Virus record (IMG/VR): IMGVR_UViG_3300024346_000137
Coordinates: 1-43,898 of that record
Direction: 5' to 3' (one strand)
Length of the DNA stretch: 43,898 bases
DNA from: a virus
The stretch's first letter is position 1. Every line of letters begins with the position of its first letter. The position numbers were made by a program, and so were the translations under genes. The notes beneath the pieces are model-generated. The model saw nothing but the letters and a program-made list of their open reading frames with translations, did not search any database and was not told where the DNA came from. Of the stretch, positions 1,224-29,946 are shown piece by piece.

Positions 1224-1556
1224 TTAGCCCAGCAGGATTTTTTTACCTTGTGTTGGTTGTTGATTGTTAACAATCAACTTACTGTCTTCGATAGTATCTT
1301 TGCACTCGCTAATCACTTTAACGATTTTCATCATGGAATCACGATTCTCTAGTTCGAGTGCTAGAAGATAAATCAGATAAAGCTTCATACGTTGTGAAAC
1401 GCCATATTGATTAATTGTTTTTACAATACCTCGGCATTCCATACGTTTTTCTTTTGATAGTTTGGTTTCAACATAGTTTGGAACAACATATGCTTCACCT
1501 TCAACTGTTTCGTTTTCATCTGTAAGCATACCATCAAAATTGCCTTCGTTACTCAT
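1224..1556 (-). CDS. Hypothetical protein, 110 aa
   Basis: Its ATG overlaps the stop of the upstream gene by four bases (ATGA, 1553-1556), so translation is probably coupled to the zinc-ribbon gene. The N terminus is acidic (about 20 residues). A helical middle with KEKRMECRGIVK and a run of leucines (about 60-75) follows, then a polar tail. No catalytic motif, signal or membrane segment is evident and I do not recognise the family. Confidence 0.68.
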   Translation of the reverse strand: MSNEGNFDGMLTDENETVEGEAYVVPNYVETKLSKEKRMECRGIVKTINQYGVSQRMKLYLIYLLALELENRDSMMKIVKVISECKDTIEDSKLIVNNQQPTQGKKILLG

Positions 1557-2011
1557 ACATCCTCCGTTGAGAAGTTTTCAATTCTCCAAAGTGTTTTCCC
1601 AGCCATTAACAAATATTTTCCCTGTGTATCTTCACCGTGAGTTTCTTTATATAAGATCACGGGTCGATCCCATTTTTCGTTTTGATAATTAAACTGTATT
1701 TGTTGCCATGCTGGCGTGTCAAGTTCATATTTGACCAACAAACCAACAAGTTTTTCTGGTAAGCTTGTTTTGATTTCTTCGATGTCTGGAACCAAATGAC
1801 TGTCTTCTTTTTTTATTCTTTCAGAAGTGTTTACTTCGGTTACTTTATGGATTGCACCACAGTTGTTGCATCTAGCATATGAAGGCTTGATTGCACCATC
1901 TGGGCTGATTACAGAAAACACAACAAACTTATGAAAAACAGGAGGATCGTGTTCTTCATATTGACGAAGAACACAATTACACGTTATTAGATGTTTGATT
2001 GATTCAAGCAT
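1553..2011 (-). CDS. Conserved zinc-ribbon-like phage protein, 152 aa
   Basis: Two cysteine pairs, C11-x-C13 near the N terminus and C48-x-x-C51 (ARCNNCGAIHKV), look like a zinc ribbon. The stretch PPVFHKFVVFSV between them looks like a beta hairpin. The C-terminal half has tryptophan-rich segments (TPAWQQIQF, KTLWRIENF). The pattern resembles uncharacterised proteins I associate with T4-like marine phages, but no function is known to me. The gene is translationally coupled to the 110-aa gene downstream. It may bind nucleic acid or protein; that is inference only. Confidence 0.72.
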   Translation of the reverse strand: MLESIKHLITCNCVLRQYEEHDPPVFHKFVVFSVISPDGAIKPSYARCNNCGAIHKVTEVNTSERIKKEDSHLVPDIEEIKTSLPEKLVGLLVKYELDTPAWQQIQFNYQNEKWDRPVILYKETHGEDTQGKYLLMAGKTLWRIENFSTEDV

Positions 2012-2053
2012 AACGACAGCAGACTGCCAAAAACAATAATAGAAACGTTGGAA

Positions 2054-2380
2054 TCAAGCGTGAACTTCTGCTGTCTTTTTGTTTTTTGGGAAGGTAGCTT
2101 TTGGGGCTACCGATTCGGTAGGGTTTTCATCGCCTGCATATGCATCAAGCTCACGTTTGATGTGTGCATGAAAAGAATCAATATTCTTAAGTTCGAACTC
2201 AGTAATCGAGATCTGGACTAGTCTAAGAATATGAGTAAGCACATCATGATCGATAGGCAAATTTTCTTTGCGAGCTTGCAATTGTATCCGATCAAATACT
2301 CCTTCTGATATTGAATGAATCAGTCGATGTACTTCACGTTCGATAGTTGAATCAAGTTTTACTCTTTGTGGATCGCTCAT
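2054..2380 (-). CDS. Hypothetical helical protein, 108 aa
   Basis: This is a mostly helical small protein with amphipathic segments (residues 10-35 and 45-80) and a flexible Pro/Lys/Thr-rich tail. There is no recognised domain, signal peptide or membrane helix. It lies in a minus-strand run between the zinc-ribbon gene (42 bases downstream) and the DUF458-type gene (51 bases upstream), so it is probably co-transcribed with them. The start at ATG 2380 is preceded by a GGAGACAAT stretch (CACGGAGACAATAT), a plausible ribosome-binding site. Confidence 0.66.
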   Translation of the reverse strand: MSDPQRVKLDSTIEREVHRLIHSISEGVFDRIQLQARKENLPIDHDVLTHILRLVQISITEFELKNIDSFHAHIKRELDAYAGDENPTESVAPKATFPKNKKTAEVHA

Positions 2381-2431
2381 ATATTGTCTCCGTGTTGCTT
2401 ATTCTTTTTATGAATATATGATAATGTATTG

Positions 2432-2917
2432 CTACTTGCTATGCTTATTTGCAATCCCAGAAGAAACAAAACTCCATGGTTTAAGAACACCCTCAAATCC
2501 AGAAGACGTAACATATCCTCGTAACTGGTCTGAAAACAAACTAGTAACTTCCCCAGCGTCAGGTGGAGAAGCATCGATATGAATAACTGGAACTTTGCCC
2601 GTTGTCTCTTGTATTTTGGTTGCGAGTTCAATTGCAAGAGTTACCTCGTAAAACATACGTGCTTTAACTTTAACAGGATATGCTCCCTTGAACTCTCTGC
2701 GATTTTGTTGTGAACTAGAATAATAATAAAAACCACCACGGCCCTTGCGATACACACAAACAACAGTAATGAATCGATATTCGTGACCATGAAGGTGTGA
2801 ATCTACACCTACAATCAACTCATAGTCAGTCGCATACATCGGATAGCTTTCCTTTATCCAAGCATACATCTCTTCATCAGTTATAACGTTACCATCTGCG
2901 TCGTTCCAAGTTCTCAT
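2432..2917 (-). CDS. YkuK/DUF458-family RNase H-fold protein
   Basis: The 161-aa product matches the DUF458 (B. subtilis YkuK) pattern. A first strand, LIVGVDSHLHG, carries D39. A second strand is FITVVCVYRKGRGG. Helices carry FYEVTLAIELA with E91, then VIHIDASPPDAG with D115, and a C-terminal GY-x-x-S-GFEGVLKPWS segment. D39, E91 and D115 are placed like the acidic triad of an RNase H-like fold. Family members are usually about 150-170 aa, so this is full length. The cellular role is unknown; nuclease activity is possible but unproven. No strong ribosome-binding site precedes the ATG, which sits inside a small inverted repeat (2916-2932). Confidence 0.8.
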   Translation of the reverse strand: MRTWNDADGNVITDEEMYAWIKESYPMYATDYELIVGVDSHLHGHEYRFITVVCVYRKGRGGFYYYSSSQQNRREFKGAYPVKVKARMFYEVTLAIELATKIQETTGKVPVIHIDASPPDAGEVTSLFSDQLRGYVTSSGFEGVLKPWSFVSSGIANKHSK

Positions 2918-2932
2918 AATGTTTTACATTAT
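2916..2932. promoter_or_regulatory. Inverted repeat over the start codon of the DUF458 gene
   Basis: ATAATGT-TTT-ACATTAT is a perfect 7-base inverted repeat with a 3-base loop, and it contains the initiator ATG of the minus-strand gene ending at 2917. It could mask the start codon in mRNA or be a small operator. It may also be chance in AT-rich sequence. Confidence 0.3.
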
Positions 2933-3010
2933 CACAATCAAATCGATTTTTATAGGTTTTCTTTTGGTAATCGCTACAATTGGCTCTTCCCCAGCGAGGC
3001 GTTTTAAAAA

Positions 3011-3721
3011 TTATCTCGCTTTTTGCCACGTATTTGGTTTGTTTTTCGTCTTTACGAGGAAGTTTGTAACGACGTATTGGCACAAATATTCTCGGCACAT
3101 TTTGGGTCTAACTTCATAAATCTGACATTTATACGTTGTTGGATTCATAAACTTGCACACATAACGTGGACCAAGAACCTGAAAACGTAAAAAAGGGTAA
3201 GCTTTTTTATCTCTGAACACTGCATTGTTTGGTGCATCTTTAAACAAAGTATCACCAATTACAACACCTTCTTCGTAATCGATCACAATATCTTGTCTAG
3301 AAAAGTTCATACCTTTCTTACGGAACCATTTTACAATATCTTTGATCCACTCTTCGTCAAGTGGACCAAGTACATGTTCCATGTCAACTGGATCTAAATG
3401 ACAACATCCACCTTTCAAACCGGGTACACCACAACAATTACCAAGACAAGTGTTCATCGCAACTTCGTCGGTAAAATGTTTGCGCTGATCTACCGGTTTA
3501 CTTTCCCACTCTGGGGCGTGATTGATGTTCAATACAGGCAAATAATACTTGTCACGATAGTCTTTTTCGTTGTTGGGATCAAGCTCTTTTTCTTTAATGA
3601 ATTTATCACGAGCAGGAGATTTAGCCACAGCAGCAATCTCGGCTTTCTCTTCCGCTGTGCGTTGTTTATCAAGCTCGACTAGATCCTCCAGCGAGATCAT
3701 TTTCTTTTGTTTAATATGCAT
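3011..3721 (-). CDS. YkgJ-like CxxxCxxCC cysteine-cluster protein
   Basis: The product has the Cys signature of the YkgJ family (putative zinc/iron-chelating): CLGNCCGVPGLKGGCCHLDP, then CKFM...CQIYEVRPKMCREYLC toward the C terminus. These could supply eight or more metal ligands. The family is common in bacteria and in T4-like phages; its biochemical role is not firmly known. I place the start at ATG 3721 (MHIKQKK); an upstream GTG at 3742 is in frame, and neither has a convincing ribosome-binding site. The first 50 residues are charged and helical. The gene diverges from 3808 across a long palindrome. Confidence 0.82.
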   Translation of the reverse strand: MHIKQKKMISLEDLVELDKQRTAEEKAEIAAVAKSPARDKFIKEKELDPNNEKDYRDKYYLPVLNINHAPEWESKPVDQRKHFTDEVAMNTCLGNCCGVPGLKGGCCHLDPVDMEHVLGPLDEEWIKDIVKWFRKKGMNFSRQDIVIDYEEGVVIGDTLFKDAPNNAVFRDKKAYPFLRFQVLGPRYVCKFMNPTTYKCQIYEVRPKMCREYLCQYVVTNFLVKTKNKPNTWQKAR

Positions 3722-3763
3722 GACATGTCTAGCATAACGCACACAAATCAGATTTCTAAAACG

Positions 3764-3795
3764 TTTTGTTTATAAGTCGCTACTTATAAACAAAA
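3764..3795. promoter_or_regulatory. 14-bp-arm perfect palindrome between divergent genes
   Basis: TTTTGTTTATAAGT, a CGCT spacer, and ACTTATAAACAAAA form a perfect inverted repeat centred between the starts of the YkgJ-like gene (minus) and the 198-aa gene (plus). Each arm holds a TATAAA hexamer pointing at its gene. A symmetrical bidirectional promoter/operator is the simplest reading; an AT-rich hairpin is the alternative. Confidence 0.5.
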
Positions 3796-3807
3796 TCTGG
3801 AGTTATC

Positions 3808-4404
3808 ATGACAACCTTAAAGCAAGCATATTCTAAGCATCAATCAAACCGTCTAATGGAAGCGAGATTAAGTCTTCTGGAGAAGGGCGTGTACCCTTTT
3901 GATGTTTTTCTCAAAGAGCATTCTGAGGCAATAAACGCCGCAGAGAAAATTGAACAACTGGAGGAGACTGTGAATCGATTCAAGACACAGGTTCCTACGT
4001 TGTATATGTTTGTGCAACAAAACTCTTTGGTTCTTCTTGAGGGCAAAGCACAACCAATCGCAATCAAAGCTGCAATGGTCAATTACACATTCATCTGCGA
4101 AGCGTTAAACAAGTGTGTTCATGAAGCCGTCAAACATATTGTGACCAAAGTTCCAGCAAACAAATCTTTGTTTTCAACATACAAACATGATGCCACTCAG
4201 CTTTTAGAGTTTTGTATCAAGAAAGCACAAGCCTATAAACTCATGGAAGGTAATGTCGATCCAATCGTAAAAACCCTTGCAGTTGAACTTGCAAATCTTT
4301 CAACAAATGAGCTGAGAACGCTTTGCGAAAGCGTACCAGCGATGCGTTTGTATGTCTCAAACGATGTTTATAATCAACTCACAAAAACCATGTTAGATGG
4401 TTGA
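3808..4404 (+). CDS. Hypothetical helical protein, 198 aa
   Basis: The ATG at 3808 follows a good GGAG (TCTGGAGTTATC). The predicted protein is almost entirely alpha-helical, with a charged KIEQLEETVNRFKTQV heptad-like segment around residues 48-63. It has no signal peptide or membrane span, and I recognise no family. Its end overlaps the convergent GroEL-like gene by 12 bases. The divergent palindrome upstream probably controls it together with the YkgJ-like gene. Confidence 0.7.
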   Translation: MTTLKQAYSKHQSNRLMEARLSLLEKGVYPFDVFLKEHSEAINAAEKIEQLEETVNRFKTQVPTLYMFVQQNSLVLLEGKAQPIAIKAAMVNYTFICEALNKCVHEAVKHIVTKVPANKSLFSTYKHDATQLLEFCIKKAQAYKLMEGNVDPIVKTLAVELANLSTNELRTLCESVPAMRLYVSNDVYNQLTKTMLDG

Positions 4405-5763
4405 CACAATAGCCCCAGAAGCTGTAAAATAACTTCCTGCTAAATTAGCGCCATACATTCCTGCCAAATATAAACCAATACTCGACACAGGCTTGTTGTT
4501 CTTAACCATATAGCTGTGCGCACGCTGCCAATCCTCTGTCAAACCGCTTGTATCGATTTCTAATGGCTTGCAAAAGCCATAGGTATACGCAGCCCTACAA
4601 GCTCTAATAGCGTTGTCTGCTGGGCCTTTAAACCGGTTTGCTGACCCTTTTGAAATATTGATCTTGACAATGTGTGCAAGTAGGTTTTGCATGCGTTTGG
4701 TTGTTAAATCGGTGAGATCGGATATCGATGTGTTTTCTGCCTGATCTTTGCGTCGTGTGTTTAGATAACTCAGATGTGCTAAAACATTACCTCTTGTTTT
4801 GCTGTTTTGAATTGTAAGAATTTTGTCAGTAAGAGACACACGCTCAACAGTTGGTAGTTTGTCATAATCAACATACGTTAACATCTCGCCTTTAAGAGTA
4901 GACACAACATCACCCCCAGATACCACAGCAATGTCATTAAGCATATTGAGTGCATCTAAAGACTGTTCCAAACGAATAGGCATGATATCAAACCCACCCC
5001 TCGTGTTGTTTGCATGCAACGTAGCAATAATCTCTTCAGAAAATCCTTGAGCAATAAACACCAAAGGAATCTTAGTCTCAAAACTCTTCGACAAAATTTT
5101 GTCTAGCTCACTTACCCTTTCAACCATACCATCAACAAGCAATATTTTGACATCGCTTCTTAGCCATGTCCCAAACTGAGGAATAAAACCATTAAATGGG
5201 TACATTTTGAAGTTATAACCAAACTGAAGTTCAACTAACGTATTTGGCTGGTCATGCTCCTCTAGCACAATATTACCTTCAATTCCAGCCAGTTTTGTAG
5301 CTTCTTTAACTGCCGTAGCTATATACAAGTCAGCAGTAATGTCATCGATTAAATCAGAGACAAGTTGTGAAGTAGCTGGATAGCAAGACTTCAATATTGT
5401 TTGAAGGTATTTCCCTCCTTCTCCTTGGTTGTGTTCCACTACTTCTTTATGTGTTATGTTTTCTTTTTTTACAAGATGGTATGCATGAGAGATAAACGAT
5501 CGAAGAAACAAACCGCTCGTATTATGGCATTTAAGTTCTAGCTGAAAACACGTTTGAAGCAGTTCTTGGTACAGCATGCGTTCCCAAGGATTTTCTGGAG
5601 TTAAAAGCTTTGCTATAAGCTGATAAGAGTCTTTTTGCAAATAGGTTTGATTTTGTTGAGAAATAGCAAGGGTTATTATATCTAGATTATTTTCAAGCTT
5701 TTGAAGGGTTTGAAGCAAGTTTTTTTGAGTGGACATTTTCTCGACAAAAGTGTTGTGGTTCAT
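4393..5763 (-). CDS. Divergent GroEL/Hsp60-like chaperonin, probably ATPase-dead
   Basis: The 456-aa product aligns by eye to GroEL across its middle: IEGNIVLEE...LVELQFGY (start of the apical domain), IPLVFIAQGFSEEIIATL, NNTRGGFDIMPIRLE, DIAVVSGGDVVS, and a helix DNAIRACRAAYTYG matching GroEL EDALHATRAA. In that alignment the ATP-site GDGTT is replaced by CHNTS (79-83) and catalytic Asp398 by N384, while a KDS near residue 44 may keep Asp52. The region after the RAA helix is only about 65 residues against about 140 in GroEL, so the C-terminal equatorial part is reduced. AAAGGA precedes ATG 5763. It may be a subunit or holdase for virion assembly (inference). Confidence 0.75.
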   Translation of the reverse strand: MNHNTFVEKMSTQKNLLQTLQKLENNLDIITLAISQQNQTYLQKDSYQLIAKLLTPENPWERMLYQELLQTCFQLELKCHNTSGLFLRSFISHAYHLVKKENITHKEVVEHNQGEGGKYLQTILKSCYPATSQLVSDLIDDITADLYIATAVKEATKLAGIEGNIVLEEHDQPNTLVELQFGYNFKMYPFNGFIPQFGTWLRSDVKILLVDGMVERVSELDKILSKSFETKIPLVFIAQGFSEEIIATLHANNTRGGFDIMPIRLEQSLDALNMLNDIAVVSGGDVVSTLKGEMLTYVDYDKLPTVERVSLTDKILTIQNSKTRGNVLAHLSYLNTRRKDQAENTSISDLTDLTTKRMQNLLAHIVKINISKGSANRFKGPADNAIRACRAAYTYGFCKPLEIDTSGLTEDWQRAHSYMVKNNKPVSSIGLYLAGMYGANLAGSYFTASGAIVSTI

Positions 5764-5810: not shown

Positions 5811-6269
5811 ATGGCTACGAGTTCCGAACGAGAATTACTTGAGATGCTCGTCAAGAAAATGGGGGAAAGCTCTGCCCTCAACGGCGGCTTCGAAAAGTTA
5901 TGCATAATGATCGAACACATTCAAGAAGAGCAAACCAAAAGTGGAATAAAACTCGACAAGGTTTCGGAAGCCCTCTATGATCCAAACAATGGATTATTTT
6001 CCCGTGTAAAAGCTATAGAGTCAAAGCTAGACACCAACATCGAAAACTTGAATCGTAAGGTTGACAATATTCCTGATGTAAAGGATGATGTTGATGACCT
6101 AAAAAAATTTCAAGCGGCAGTGGAGAGCATTGCGGGAAAGCAGCTAGAAGAACTAAACGAACTCGTGAAGCTGCGTAAAAACCTCGCCCACGTTTATTGG
6201 GCACTTGCTCTTTCTGCCGCTGCTGCATTCCTGTCGATGCTTTTTAACCTCTGGAAGCACACAAATTAG
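5811..6269 (+). CDS. Coiled-coil protein with one C-terminal membrane helix
   Basis: A strong site (GAAGAGGTGATCTA) precedes ATG 5811. Residues about 30-125 are charged heptads (KAIESKLDTNIENLNRKVD, DVDDLKKFQAAVES) typical of a coiled coil. Residues about 127-148 (VYWALALSAAAAFLSMLF) form a single membrane-spanning helix followed by a short basic tail. The architecture recalls XhlA-type lysis accessory proteins and other phage spacer/tether proteins, but there is no sequence match I would name. It is probably an inner-membrane-anchored oligomer. Confidence 0.75.
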   Translation: MATSSERELLEMLVKKMGESSALNGGFEKLCIMIEHIQEEQTKSGIKLDKVSEALYDPNNGLFSRVKAIESKLDTNIENLNRKVDNIPDVKDDVDDLKKFQAAVESIAGKQLEELNELVKLRKNLAHVYWALALSAAAAFLSMLFNLWKHTN

Positions 6270-19106: not shown

Positions 19107-19345
19107 GCTATTGTAGTCCGCATCTCTTCCTTAATTTCTTCTGCTTCGGCCAACATTTTATCGATGCTGGCCTCGAAGTTTTTCTTATACTCTGGCGCTA
19201 GAACAAGCTTGCCATCTTCGTTTGGCGTTAATTGCACCATACGCATATTGTCGCCGATGCTTGTTCCTGTAAGCAGAGCCATTTGTAGAAGTTTGGCTAT
19301 TTGGGCAATAAACTCATCGCTTAGATTATAAACTGGTTGACTCAT
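19097..19345 (-). CDS. Small conserved helical phage protein, 82 aa
   Basis: The start is ATG 19345, with AGAGGA eight bases upstream (inside the end of dnaJ). In-frame upstream starts lack a site. The product (MSQPVYNLSDEFIAQIAKLL...LTGTSIGDNMRMVQL...LTP/LAPEY) has an N-terminal helix, a small beta unit and a C-terminal acidic helix. I associate this pattern with short conserved proteins in T4-like phages, but I know no function. It overlaps dnaJ by 20 bases, so translation is probably coupled. Confidence 0.75.
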   Translation of the reverse strand: MSQPVYNLSDEFIAQIAKLLQMALLTGTSIGDNMRMVQLTPNEDGKLVLAPEYKKNFEASIDKMLAEAEEIKEEMRTTIAQA

Positions 19346-20312
19346 CGTTGGAATCCTCTCTGCTGTATAGCTTGGCAAGCTGCTCTATGATTGTCTTATG
19401 TTCATCAGACATATTCTCTGGAATCTCTACGTGTGGAAGTAAAAACAAATCTCCACGTTCTGTTGAATAAGGAGAAGAATAAACTCCCTTGCCTTTGATT
19501 TTTATCATTTGGGTTGTAGATTTTAGCGGCGGAAATTTGACGTTGATTTTGGTATCCTCCAACGATTTAATGGAATGCATACCACCTAATACCGCAACGT
19601 GGTAAGGAATGCCCACGTTCATTATCAATCGACCCCCAGCGCCTAACTTGATGTTATCCGGATACTGCACAACAATCGATGTTAAAACCGTACCATGTTC
19701 GGTGTTGGATTGCAGTTGAGTGTTTGAAAGCATACCTTTTGGTATTTTTATTTTCACTTGTTTGGTTTCTTCTGACCCACCAATTCCCTTGCATCCCTCG
19801 CAAGCTTCGTATTTAACTCCTGTTTCTCCACAATTTTGACAACCACTTCCACCACACTTGGTACATCTGCCGCCTTTACCAACCGCCGTCCCAAAGCATT
19901 TAATGCATTTGGTGCGAACAGTAATTGGCACCATTCTTTCTTGTTCTTCTAAAGACTCAGCAAGGGTAATAGAAATGTTAGCTTTGAAGCGGGGAAACGC
20001 TTGATGGCGGGCTGTGGAGGAAGAGCGGGTGTTAAATCCACCAAATAAATCATCGAACATTACTTCTGGAGAAAAGAATGTATCTTGTCTGGGTATACCG
20101 TTTATGTGATCTTGTTGTTGATCGTACCTTAAACGTTGCTGTTGATCCCCAAGTGTTTCGTATGCAGTGTTAACTTCTTTGAATTTTTCTTCTGCCTGCG
20201 GATTGTCTGGATTCCGATCTGGGTGGTATTGCAGAGCTTTTGTTCTGAATGCGGCCTTGATTTCTTCTGCTGTTGCTGTTTTCTTTATGCCTAATACTTC
20301 GTAAAAGTTCAT
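19326..20312 (-). CDS. dnaJ: DnaJ/Hsp40 co-chaperone
   Basis: From ATG 20312 (GGAA upstream; an ATG at 20342 lacks a site) the product is 328 aa. It has a J-domain (1-65) with HPD at 30-32. A Gly/Phe-type stretch includes LFGGFNTRSS. The zinc domain has four CxxC pairs (C136/139, 150/153, 158/161, 171/174), and the client-binding C-terminal domains end before residue 328. All key residues of a type I DnaJ are present. It would stimulate the host DnaK, or a phage Hsp70 not seen here. It diverges from the fibre gene at 20396. Confidence 0.92.
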   Translation of the reverse strand: MNFYEVLGIKKTATAEEIKAAFRTKALQYHPDRNPDNPQAEEKFKEVNTAYETLGDQQQRLRYDQQQDHINGIPRQDTFFSPEVMFDDLFGGFNTRSSSTARHQAFPRFKANISITLAESLEEQERMVPITVRTKCIKCFGTAVGKGGRCTKCGGSGCQNCGETGVKYEACEGCKGIGGSEETKQVKIKIPKGMLSNTQLQSNTEHGTVLTSIVVQYPDNIKLGAGGRLIMNVGIPYHVAVLGGMHSIKSLEDTKINVKFPPLKSTTQMIKIKGKGVYSSPYSTERGDLFLLPHVEIPENMSDEHKTIIEQLAKLYSREDSNDESTSL

Positions 20313-20395
20313 AGTATTGCTTCCATTGTGAGAAGCGTTCATATATATGAATAGAATGCAAGCCAGTTCGGCCCAAAGACAAAAGATGTCTCGTT

Positions 20396-27272: not shown

Positions 27273-27902
27273 TCAGCCGAAAGTCATATCAACGTCGAAA
27301 GCTAGTTTTACTTTGGGAATACGAAGATGATTGACCATGTTGTGCTTCTTTACTTCTTCGGCATCCAAGAACCAATCAGCATGACCTTTCTCATGCACAA
27401 GCTTTGAGAAATAAGCTTCTGGTTTTCCGCAGTTGTCTGACATGATCTTGAAAATCAATTTATTCAGGCGTTCAACTTCTTTTGCTTCCGCTTTAATTTC
27501 TTCACACTTACCAAAAGCAAAGGTTGCAACGTCGTGAATCATAACAGTTGCTGTTGGAGCCATATAACGATGACCTTCTGCACCACATGTGAGAAGTACA
27601 GCACCACACGACATAGCTTTGCCTAGACAAATAGTTGCAACAGGCACAGACGATGCCCGAATCACATCGATCATCTTAAGAAGCGAATATACTTCGCCAC
27701 CGTATGAGTCTATTACAATAGGAATTATGGTTTGCCCCGTGTTTTGAGCGTTAACCATCGCTTCAACAAACTCTTTGGCCGACTCTTCATTAAACTTGTT
27801 TACGTAGATAATGTTAGGGGATTTATACTTCACCGTAACTTCTCCAGAGTCAGTAATCTCTGGCTTCGAAAGCAGTGGATTTTTTACTTGTAATTCGAAC
27901 AT
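27273..27902 (-). CDS. ClpP-like serine protease (S14)
   Basis: The start is ATG 27902 with AAGGAG 9 bases upstream (longer in-frame start at 27941 rejected), giving 209 aa. The catalytic triad is intact by motif: S98 in GKAMSCGAVLL, H123 in MIHDVA, D176 in ADWFLDAEE. IDSYGGEVYSLLKMID matches the oxyanion loop. ClpP works as a tetradecamer with an AAA+ partner, and no such partner is seen here. In some phages S14 proteins act as prohead proteases, and this gene diverges from a capsid-targeting-like gene (27972). Either role is possible. Confidence 0.88.
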   Translation of the reverse strand: MFELQVKNPLLSKPEITDSGEVTVKYKSPNIIYVNKFNEESAKEFVEAMVNAQNTGQTIIPIVIDSYGGEVYSLLKMIDVIRASSVPVATICLGKAMSCGAVLLTCGAEGHRYMAPTATVMIHDVATFAFGKCEEIKAEAKEVERLNKLIFKIMSDNCGKPEAYFSKLVHEKGHADWFLDAEEVKKHNMVNHLRIPKVKLAFDVDMTFG

Positions 27903-27971
27903 ATGTTTGCTCCTTTTTACTACATCACAATAGCATAACACAAATCTATGATAAAGCTATATCTATAAACA

Positions 27972-28356: not shown

Positions 28357-29946
28357 CTAAATAGCCACAGGCAACTTAATCGACGGGTGATGCTCGTAAC
28401 TATCCAGTGTCACTTTATCAAAATCAAATCCATCAATATCCATAACAGACTTATCTAACACCAACTTAGGCATTGGATATGGTGTTCTATGCAACTGTTG
28501 TTTCAACGCTTCAACGTGGTTTGAATAAATGTGCAAGTCGCCAAAGGTCATAATTAACTCTCCAACCTCTAGCCCACACACTTGAGCAATCATATGTGTT
28601 AGAAGAGCATATGAAGCAACATTAAAGGGGTTCCCAAGTCCAAGATCATTTGATCTCATATATAACTGACAACTGAGCTTACCATTTACCACATAGAATT
28701 GGAACATCATATGACATGGAGGAAGAGCCATCTTTGGTAATATCGGAACGTTCCATGCAGACACAATAATTCTACGTGAGTCTGGATTTGTTTTTATCTG
28801 CTGAATCACTTCCTTGATTTGGTCTACGATTCTTTTGCGTCTATAAACCATACCCATAGGCGGTTCTATTTTTTCTATTTCAGTATATTTGCCAATAGCC
28901 AATCGTTTACCTGACAATATCTCGGATATCCTTCTGGCATCTAGACTATATTTCTCTGCACATTCTTTTTGCGAGATAAACAACTCTTTTTTATACGTAA
29001 AAGGCATGGTCGCTTTGGCTAATTCTCTGTTGTAAGAAGTATCCAAAAAGATCGTGGTAAATGGACTATATTGTTTTGAACCATAATAGTCTTTGTCCAA
29101 ACAAAAATCAGATGGATTGTGAATCCAAGCGTAGTAAAATGGTACTTGTGTTATAGTTTTACAGAACTCAGCAAAACAATGCCATTGTTCAGAAACAGTG
29201 ACACCATTTCCTCCATATAAAGGATAAGATGGGTGATTTTTGTCATAACAACGAACTATCATATTTGCCCAAAGATTGTATAGTTTACCATCCGTTTTAA
29301 CTGTAGCCTCACCAAGATACCCCACTCCCGCTACGCTTCGATCTAGATAATTCCGAATTTGACCATTTAGTAAATTTGGTCGAGAAACAACAGTGATAAA
29401 CCCATCAGACTGGAATTGTACCTTGTACCTTGTGTTTTTTTCTCCTTTTTTTGATACTTTTTCCAAAACCATGACCATTTGCCCGCTCTTGGTAGAGTGT
29501 AACGTCCCAATTAGTGGATCATTTATATCTGATGAAGGTAATTGTAACGGAATAGCTTTAACTGGCCAAGGAGTCAAATCTGGCGACTTTACGGGTACAA
29601 GAACAATATCATTACTGATTGTTTCCCATCGTCGCCAGGAAAAACCATAAACAGGACCAAGGTTTCCATCTTTATCTGCCCATTCATCCCAGATAGAAAT
29701 ACCGTTTTCTTTTAGCCACTTGATATTAGTGTTCCCTTGGAGGAACCATAGGAGTTCTCCTACAACAGACTTCCAGTGGACTCGTTTCGAGGTTAGGATA
29801 GGGAATCCTAGAGAAAGATCATAACGAGCTTGCCTACCGAAAACCGAGATGGTTCCTGTGCCTGTGCGGTCAGTTTTTTCTACACCATTGGTGAGAACGT
29901 CATTGATTAGATCGAAATAGGTTTGGTCAACGTGATGATATGTCAT
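28357..29946 (-). CDS. thyA: Thymidylate synthase with an in-frame HNH endonuclease insertion
   Basis: The outer parts are ThyA: residues 1-109 (DRTGTGTISVFGRQ, FPILTSKRVHWK, ELLWFLQG, GPVYGFSWRRW) and 374-529 (SRRIIVSAWNV, ALPPC411H, RSNDLGLGNPFN, FGDLHIYSNH, ending KLPVAI). Together they are 265 residues, the normal ThyA length, with catalytic C411 intact. Between them, in one open frame, sits a 264-residue homing-endonuclease-like insert (28828-29619) at the surface loop where E. coli has PTPDGRH. No stop, intein splice residues or space for a group I intron core are seen. The enzyme makes dTMP from dUMP and methylene-THF. Confidence 0.92.
   Translation of the reverse strand: MTYHHVDQTYFDLINDVLTNGVEKTDRTGTGTISVFGRQARYDLSLGFPILTSKRVHWKSVVGELLWFLQGNTNIKWLKENGISIWDEWADKDGNLGPVYGFSWRRWETISNDIVLVPVKSPDLTPWPVKAIPLQLPSSDINDPLIGTLHSTKSGQMVMVLEKVSKKGEKNTRYKVQFQSDGFITVVSRPNLLNGQIRNYLDRSVAGVGYLGEATVKTDGKLYNLWANMIVRCYDKNHPSYPLYGGNGVTVSEQWHCFAEFCKTITQVPFYYAWIHNPSDFCLDKDYYGSKQYSPFTTIFLDTSYNRELAKATMPFTYKKELFISQKECAEKYSLDARRISEILSGKRLAIGKYTEIEKIEPPMGMVYRRKRIVDQIKEVIQQIKTNPDSRRIIVSAWNVPILPKMALPPCHMMFQFYVVNGKLSCQLYMRSNDLGLGNPFNVASYALLTHMIAQVCGLEVGELIMTFGDLHIYSNHVEALKQQLHRTPYPMPKLVLDKSVMDIDGFDFDKVTLDSYEHHPSIKLPVAI
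28828..29619 (-). mobile_element. HNH-type homing endonuclease inserted in thyA
   Basis: The insert (ThyA residues about 110-373) has an N-terminal tether (IGTLHSTKSGQMVMVLE...VQFQSDGFITVV) and then VAGVGYLGEAT. The HNH-like core follows (YNLWANMIVRCYDKN...VSEQWHCFAEFC...FCLDKDYYGSKQYSP), and then a NUMOD1-like DNA-binding helix pair (ISQKECAEKYSLDARRISEILSGKR in parts). This order is typical of phage HNH homing endonucleases found in introns or freestanding. Here it continues the ThyA frame. It lacks the Cys/Ser start and the HN-Cys/Ser/Thr end of inteins. Confidence 0.8.

Follow-up and report, generated by a model that had tools for sequence, protein, structure and literature searches.

The vertebrate proteins BBS6/MKKS, BBS10 and BBS12 have been described as divergent chaperonin paralogues with an eroded ATP-hydrolysis motif in genomes that also encode a full chaperonin (PMC2846930), and in Chlamydia the divergent paralogues GroEL2 and GroEL3, with reported changes in their ATP and GroES sites, are found beside a normal GroEL1 (PMC1892554). 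Phages also encode chaperonins, among which that of phage EL is reported to hydrolyse ATP, with the nucleotide pocket described as its only highly conserved part (PMC7185714); the AR9 chaperonin has been treated separately (PMC9598537) and atypical chaperonins have been reviewed (PMC5904260). The literature searched, which included few subscription journals and preprints, yielded no example of an ATPase-dead phage chaperonin.

Here we identify non-catalytic group I chaperonins, termed pseudo-GroELs, which form a family of their own in large uncultured phages, the longest contigs of which also encode an ATPase-competent phage GroEL. Computation shows that the family has a chaperonin fold, that every aligned member has lost the nucleotide site, that constraint is retained mainly in the apical domain and that long contigs encode a canonical GroEL as well. 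The gene under study lies at 4393..5763 (-) of a 43,898-base virus record, probably a fragment, the whole of which was analysed and is referred to as the window; it begins with ATG and encodes a protein of 456 amino acids. The initial annotation had described this protein as GroEL-like and recommended HMM and structure comparison to GroEL, both of which were carried out and match a group I chaperonin in sequence profile and predicted fold. The PHROG 'chaperonin groEL' matched residues 145-397 (E 6.8e-21), phmmer searches of the PDB returned GroEL chains (best E 1.5e-14) and profile-profile comparison of the family with GroEL by hhalign gave a probability of 99.8% (E 3.9e-30); the window protein has ~17% identity to E. 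coli GroEL. NCBIfam GroEL models matched with E values down to 5e-20, all far under their curated cut-offs (53 bits against 582.1 for TIGR02348), and the model with the longest reach on the protein, GroEL3_Chlamy (residues 8-373), likewise scored 53 bits against a cut-off of 600. Pfam gave no match for the window protein, and at E 1e-3 none of 27 family members matched it either; as pseudo-GroELs are missed by both Pfam and the GroEL cut-offs, such proteins sit unnamed in phage genomes.

An AlphaFold monomer model built from the 27 family sequences (pLDDT 83.4, pTM 0.60) was used for structural comparison in place of an earlier model from 5 sequences (pLDDT 43). The top 50 PDB rows returned by Foldseek for the predicted model were all group I chaperonins (best E 7.2e-23), and VIA aligned 441 of its residues to Thermus Cpn60 and 439 to GroEL (Z 25.8) with a whole-chain rmsd of ~6 Å, as expected with moving domains, so that the three-domain fold is matched from end to end. 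The apical portion of the model, residues 182-363, fits a solved Cpn60-alpha apical domain to 1.8 Å over 178 residues. Taken with the sequence profiles, this makes for strong evidence that the product of 4393-5763 (-) is a group I chaperonin homologue. We set domain borders from the alignment, giving an N-terminal equatorial part (residues 1-129, 5377..5763 (-)) and an ascending intermediate domain (residues 130-176, 5236..5376 (-)), both drawn with the predicted model, followed by the apical domain (residues 177-363, 4675..5235 (-), from the structure alignment), a descending intermediate domain (residues 364-396, 4576..4674 (-)) and a reduced C-terminal equatorial part (residues 397-456, 4396..4575 (-)) made up of a short helix, a long helix and the C-terminal strand. 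The apical motifs pointed out in the initial annotation are present and some of them are among the most conserved positions of the family.

That annotation had further proposed that the protein seems to have lost its ATPase site and that other known phage GroEL homologues keep theirs. We aligned 27 pseudo-GroELs together with six companion GroELs encoded in the same contigs as family members and six divergent phage GroELs (from phage EL, AR9, Survivor, Vibrio phage 2 TSL-2019, AH04 and phi14:2, with 18.5-39.5% identity to E. coli GroEL) in three MAFFT modes. Asp87, Asp398 and Asp495 were each absent from 27/27 pseudo-GroELs in all three modes, as were Thr89-91 and Gly32, and Pro33 was found in 0-1/27. 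The companion GroELs keep Asp52, Asp87, Asp398 and Asp495 in 6/6, and the divergent phage GroELs keep the first three of these in 6/6 and Asp495 in 5/6, so that for Asp87 and Asp398 the claim about other phage GroELs holds in both sets. Because the divergent controls retain Asp52, Asp87 and Asp398 within the same alignment, alignment error is an unlikely cause, and on the basis of these six controls, in all three modes, the possibility that the loss is an artefact was rejected.

Individual details of the site were also as first described. The GDGTT loop is replaced in the window by CHNTS (residues 79-83, 5515..5529 (-), placed by MAFFT and hhalign) and in relatives by GSS, GAG, YSS and similar sequences, and Asn384 (4612-4614) in the descending intermediate domain stands opposite the catalytic Asp398 in both MAFFT and hhalign alignments. 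The window residue opposite Asp87 varies with the aligner, being Asn81 with hhalign and Lys78 or His/Asn with MAFFT, and is never Asp. The last equatorial part is indeed reduced, with ~73 residues between the Asp398 position and the C-terminal strand where E. coli GroEL has ~126; nothing corresponds to GroEL residues ~420-444 and ~458-492, and the Gly-Met tail is absent. The claim of a lost site thus stands for Asp87, Asp398 and Asp495 and is qualified at Asp52, which is apparently kept in the window, where hhalign sets Asp45 against it, and in just 6-12 of the 27 members depending on the aligner. The alignments support ATPase-site loss as a trait of the family; the Asp52 of the window counts against a complete loss of the site, and the sequences would leave room for a nucleotide bound in a remodelled pocket.

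Querying IMG/VR with the conserved apical segment identified 16 and then 30 contigs, giving a family of 31 virus contigs with the window included. Scans of viral contigs using the whole protein returned 1 relative, and those using N-terminal conserved stretches 2 and 4. No family member was found in scans of bacterial and archaeal genome contigs, the second of which returned only ordinary Streptococcus GroEL, and tblastn of 50,697 phage records gave no clear member: the window protein matched 66 records and L096 matched 10, all at canonical or unannotated GroEL-like places, and L098 none. The alignment of 27 members omits L046 and L047 (near-copies of L045), L053 (cut by a contig end) and L095 (nearly identical to L096 and likewise truncated), and includes L090 and L093, whose sequences lack an initial ATG and were translated from the open frame. 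Although members fall as low as 21% identity to the window protein, they form one clade relative to canonical GroELs (support 100/100) in an unrooted tree with a long stem, in which pseudo-GroEL may or may not descend from a duplicated phage GroEL. Loss of a catalytic site could be taken as the mark of a decaying pseudogene or an assembly artefact. The frames are however intact in unrelated contigs, they belong to a single clade with conserved synteny, and comparison of the window with four relatives (dN 0.13-0.28, dS 1.1-1.8) gives a dN/dS of ~0.11-0.16, a level of purifying selection strong enough to indicate that the gene is not decaying. Decay or misassembly is refuted as far as sequence allows, and we give it next to no weight.

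Constraint in pseudo-GroELs has shifted to the apical domain, where mean pairwise identity is 0.41 compared to 0.19-0.28 elsewhere (0.19-0.22 in the equatorial parts, 0.22 in the N-terminal one). Companion GroELs from the same five genomes show 0.51 in the apical domain, 0.51-0.54 in the equatorial domain and 0.61-0.80 in the intermediate domain. Eleven positions are invariant across the 27 members, including Gly212, Gly240, Asn273 and Leu290, which differ from the corresponding GroEL residues. Gly240 falls within the family signature AQGFSEE (residues 238-244, 5032..5052 (-)) at the start of apical helix I, and Leu290 within TLKG (residues 289-292, 4888..4899 (-)), a motif without a GroEL counterpart in which Gly292 is also invariant and Lys291 nearly so. 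A conserved head with family-specific invariant residues on a degenerate base is what might be expected of a natural 'minichaperone', a stand-alone binder that would hold one phage protein and never meet a GroEL ring, and the isolated GroEL apical domain has been reported to suppress aggregation (PMC4973282). Such a binder would leave unexplained why all six contigs of at least 119 kb carry a canonical GroEL, and if the head alone mattered the ~270 other residues need not keep a chaperonin fold; we consider this reading possible, if somewhat unlikely.

Most members are polar at the groove positions Leu234 and Val263, with Asp, Glu, His or Asn at Leu234 in 27/27. Divergent phage GroELs with an intact ATPase are often polar at these positions too, which weakens the proposal that a polar groove marks lost substrate binding. 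The polar groove would therefore speak weakly against both a general holding and a GroEL-like binding of unfolded chains.

The stem-loop hairpin of GroEL is the element that is given to the neighbouring subunit. No such hairpin was found in the predicted monomer model, since a long helix spans residues 9-37 and there is no strand between residues 9 and 163; strands are predicted at residues 4-8 and 450-454. Four of the five residues that we take to make the GroEL inter-ring contacts (Glu434, Arg452, Glu461, Ser463 and Val464) are deleted in the window, with Ser at the position of Arg452, and the missing GroEL segments ~420-444 and ~458-492 presumably cover the adenine-contact region in addition to most of the inter-ring residues. 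With no stem-loop predicted and most inter-ring residues gone, pseudo-GroEL alone appears unlikely to assemble into a GroEL-type ring or double ring, and rings like those of GroEL are less probable than the initial annotation had supposed.

When all 31 contigs were searched with the GroEL of G002, six proved to encode a second, full-length GroEL whose ATPase motifs are intact: G002 (119 kb), G004 (260 kb), G009 (241 kb), G011 (157 kb), G019 (320 kb) and G029 (298 kb). Co-encoding follows contig size, being found in 6/8 contigs >100 kb, in 6/6 of those of at least 119 kb and in 0/23 of those ≤91 kb. No canonical GroEL was found in the two remaining contigs >100 kb (106 and 101 kb) or in the window contig, all of which may be fragments. 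A distance of 42-144 kb separates the two genes, whose relative order varies. In G002, G004 and G009, the closest relatives of the window to encode both, GroEL is 42-51 kb downstream of the pseudo-GroEL; the window contig ends ~4.4 kb downstream of the gene, so a GroEL of its own could not be seen. Even where the companion shares as little as 46% identity with the query GroEL, pseudo-GroEL is kept. Among the companions, five group in a single clade (100/100), and the sixth, from G029, falls outside it without a resolved placement. The companions of G002, G004, G009 and G019 (L012 982-2712, L025, L057 and L101) carry ~35 extra residues near GroEL position 470, on the inter-ring side, and lack the Gly-Met tail.

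The initial annotation saw in the protein a possible holdase, ring partner of host GroEL or assembly scaffold. The presence of this companion in long contigs makes the phage's own GroEL, and not that of the host, the natural first candidate for a ring partner. A chaperonin fold without ATPase could also act on the host chaperonin as a decoy or a poison, joining or capping host GroEL or taking up host GroES and thereby redirecting folding to the phage. Consistent with this, the Cpn10 model detected no GroES in 15 of the 16 contigs searched out of 31, the exception being G019, where it lies near GroEL. We regard a decoy as improbable, since both GroES-contact positions checked are polar in most members and the phage carries its own GroEL and, in one contig, its own GroES. 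Using the G019 GroES as query in 7/31 contigs, and with the gp31 family found in 0/7 contigs searched, no GroES was identified in G002, G004, G009, G011 or G029. That pseudo-GroEL replaces GroES was also considered and rejected, G019 encoding GroEL, GroES and pseudo-GroEL together (loci G019:C1:133935-135629 and 143348-143614).

The reading we favour, with a probability of about 0.5, is that pseudo-GroEL works alongside the phage's own GroEL as a non-catalytic adaptor or binding subunit that needs no ATP. Working without ATP, its apical head would bind a specific phage protein, either a client or the phage GroEL itself, and its reduced equatorial base, without the predicted stem-loop and the inter-ring residues, would form no GroEL-type double ring by itself. 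Its likeliest job would be that of an accessory to the phage chaperonin that holds or presents a dedicated client, or that joins or regulates the GroEL ring. We rate this mechanism lower than the identity of the protein, which is strong, because the mechanism is inferred. Counting against an accessory role are the distance of 42-144 kb between the genes, with no operon and a changing order, and the window and the 106- and 101-kb contigs without canonical GroEL, though these may be fragments. The pairing may reflect only two old genes of one phage lineage. A more specific and, to us, unlikely version of the accessory reading is a chaperonin of two components, pairing a GroEL that burns ATP with a one-sided subunit devoid of catalysis. 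Pseudo-GroEL keeps both its N-terminal and its C-terminal strand, which could accept the stem-loop of a neighbour, and with its own stem-loop missing such a subunit might break, cap or asymmetrically mark the ring and so dedicate the machine to a phage client.

Certain neighbours of the gene persist even between members at ~21-29% identity (26 loci counted). A helical protein of 198 amino acids (3808..4404 (+)) is convergent with the pseudo-GroEL gene and overlaps it by 12 bases, with a relative adjoining in 8/26 loci, and a protein of 152 amino acids with a hydrophobic C-terminal stretch (5811..6269 (+)) has a relative at most 2 ORFs away in 17/26. A 152-residue two-CxxC-type protein occurs in the neighbourhood of 18/26 loci and an RNase-H-like PHROG (phrog_11311) near the gene in 15/26. 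Directly upstream in the five distant contigs L089, L092, L094, L096 and L099 are a PrkA-like ATPase (phrog_22605), whose tblastn matches are annotated as serine kinase, and phrog_35217, which we take to be SpoVR-like. A gene weakly similar to tubulin/PhuZ (PhuZ match E 0.042) lies downstream in L089, L092, L096 and L099 and not in L094. The initial annotation had placed DnaJ and ClpP-like genes in the same window, and both are present (19326-20342 and 27273-27941) at ~14 and ~22 kb from the pseudo-GroEL gene; as they are not adjacent they provide weak evidence of a shared pathway. A ClpP-like gene lies within ~4 kb of pseudo-GroEL in 3/26 loci. The conserved neighbour with a hydrophobic C-terminus, along with the many family-specific invariant residues, would suit a co-opted scaffold that has abandoned chaperone work for a part in assembly or the virion. 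We think this quite improbable, the recognised neighbours being PhoH, the RNase-H-like PHROG, PrkA-/SpoVR-like genes and a ClpP-like protease, not capsid genes.

The window also encodes PhoH, a DnaB-type helicase, ribonucleotide reductase, dihydrofolate reductase and thymidylate synthase, and Rfam gave no match anywhere within it. The thymidylate synthase (28357-29946 (-)) carries an in-frame insert of ~220 residues after YGFSWRRWE that matches an HNH endonuclease (phrog_2081) and is intein-like or intron-ORF-like, no Rfam intron being found. In the close relative L001 the PhoH gene (1482-4115 (-)) is interrupted at its Walker A motif (GCGK / TLLAID) by an intein-like, in-frame stretch of ~390 residues that the window PhoH lacks. 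Homing-endonuclease-like ORFs, which to us have a GIY-YIG look, lie beside PhoH in L001 (566-1402 (-)) and L009 (2745-3698 (-)), with none beside the window PhoH.

Pseudo-GroELs resemble chaperonins of the EL/OBP/AR9 type in being divergent, encoded by large phages and usually without an adjacent GroES. They differ in that EL and AR9 keep Asp52, Asp87 and Asp398, whereas pseudo-GroELs lack Asp87 and Asp398, and the pattern described for phage EL is reversed, the pocket being lost and the apical domain conserved. The closest parallels would appear to be the vertebrate BBS/MKKS proteins and chlamydial GroEL2/3. From their description the latter are likewise bacterial-type GroEL paralogues alongside a normal GroEL, although cellular. 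The likeness to BBS/MKKS, again drawn from description, would be a functional analogy, those proteins being group II and eukaryotic whereas the best structure rows of pseudo-GroEL are all group I; they are also reported to keep the Gly-Pro of the ATP-binding site (PMC2846930), which pseudo-GroELs have lost. If our favoured reading is correct, phages, like vertebrates and Chlamydia, would have made a chaperonin subunit into a non-catalytic part. The phage chaperonins in the literature examined are ATPases, from which an ATPase-dead lineage beside an active one would differ, and in pseudo-GroEL the binding head would have been naturally parted from the ATP motor.
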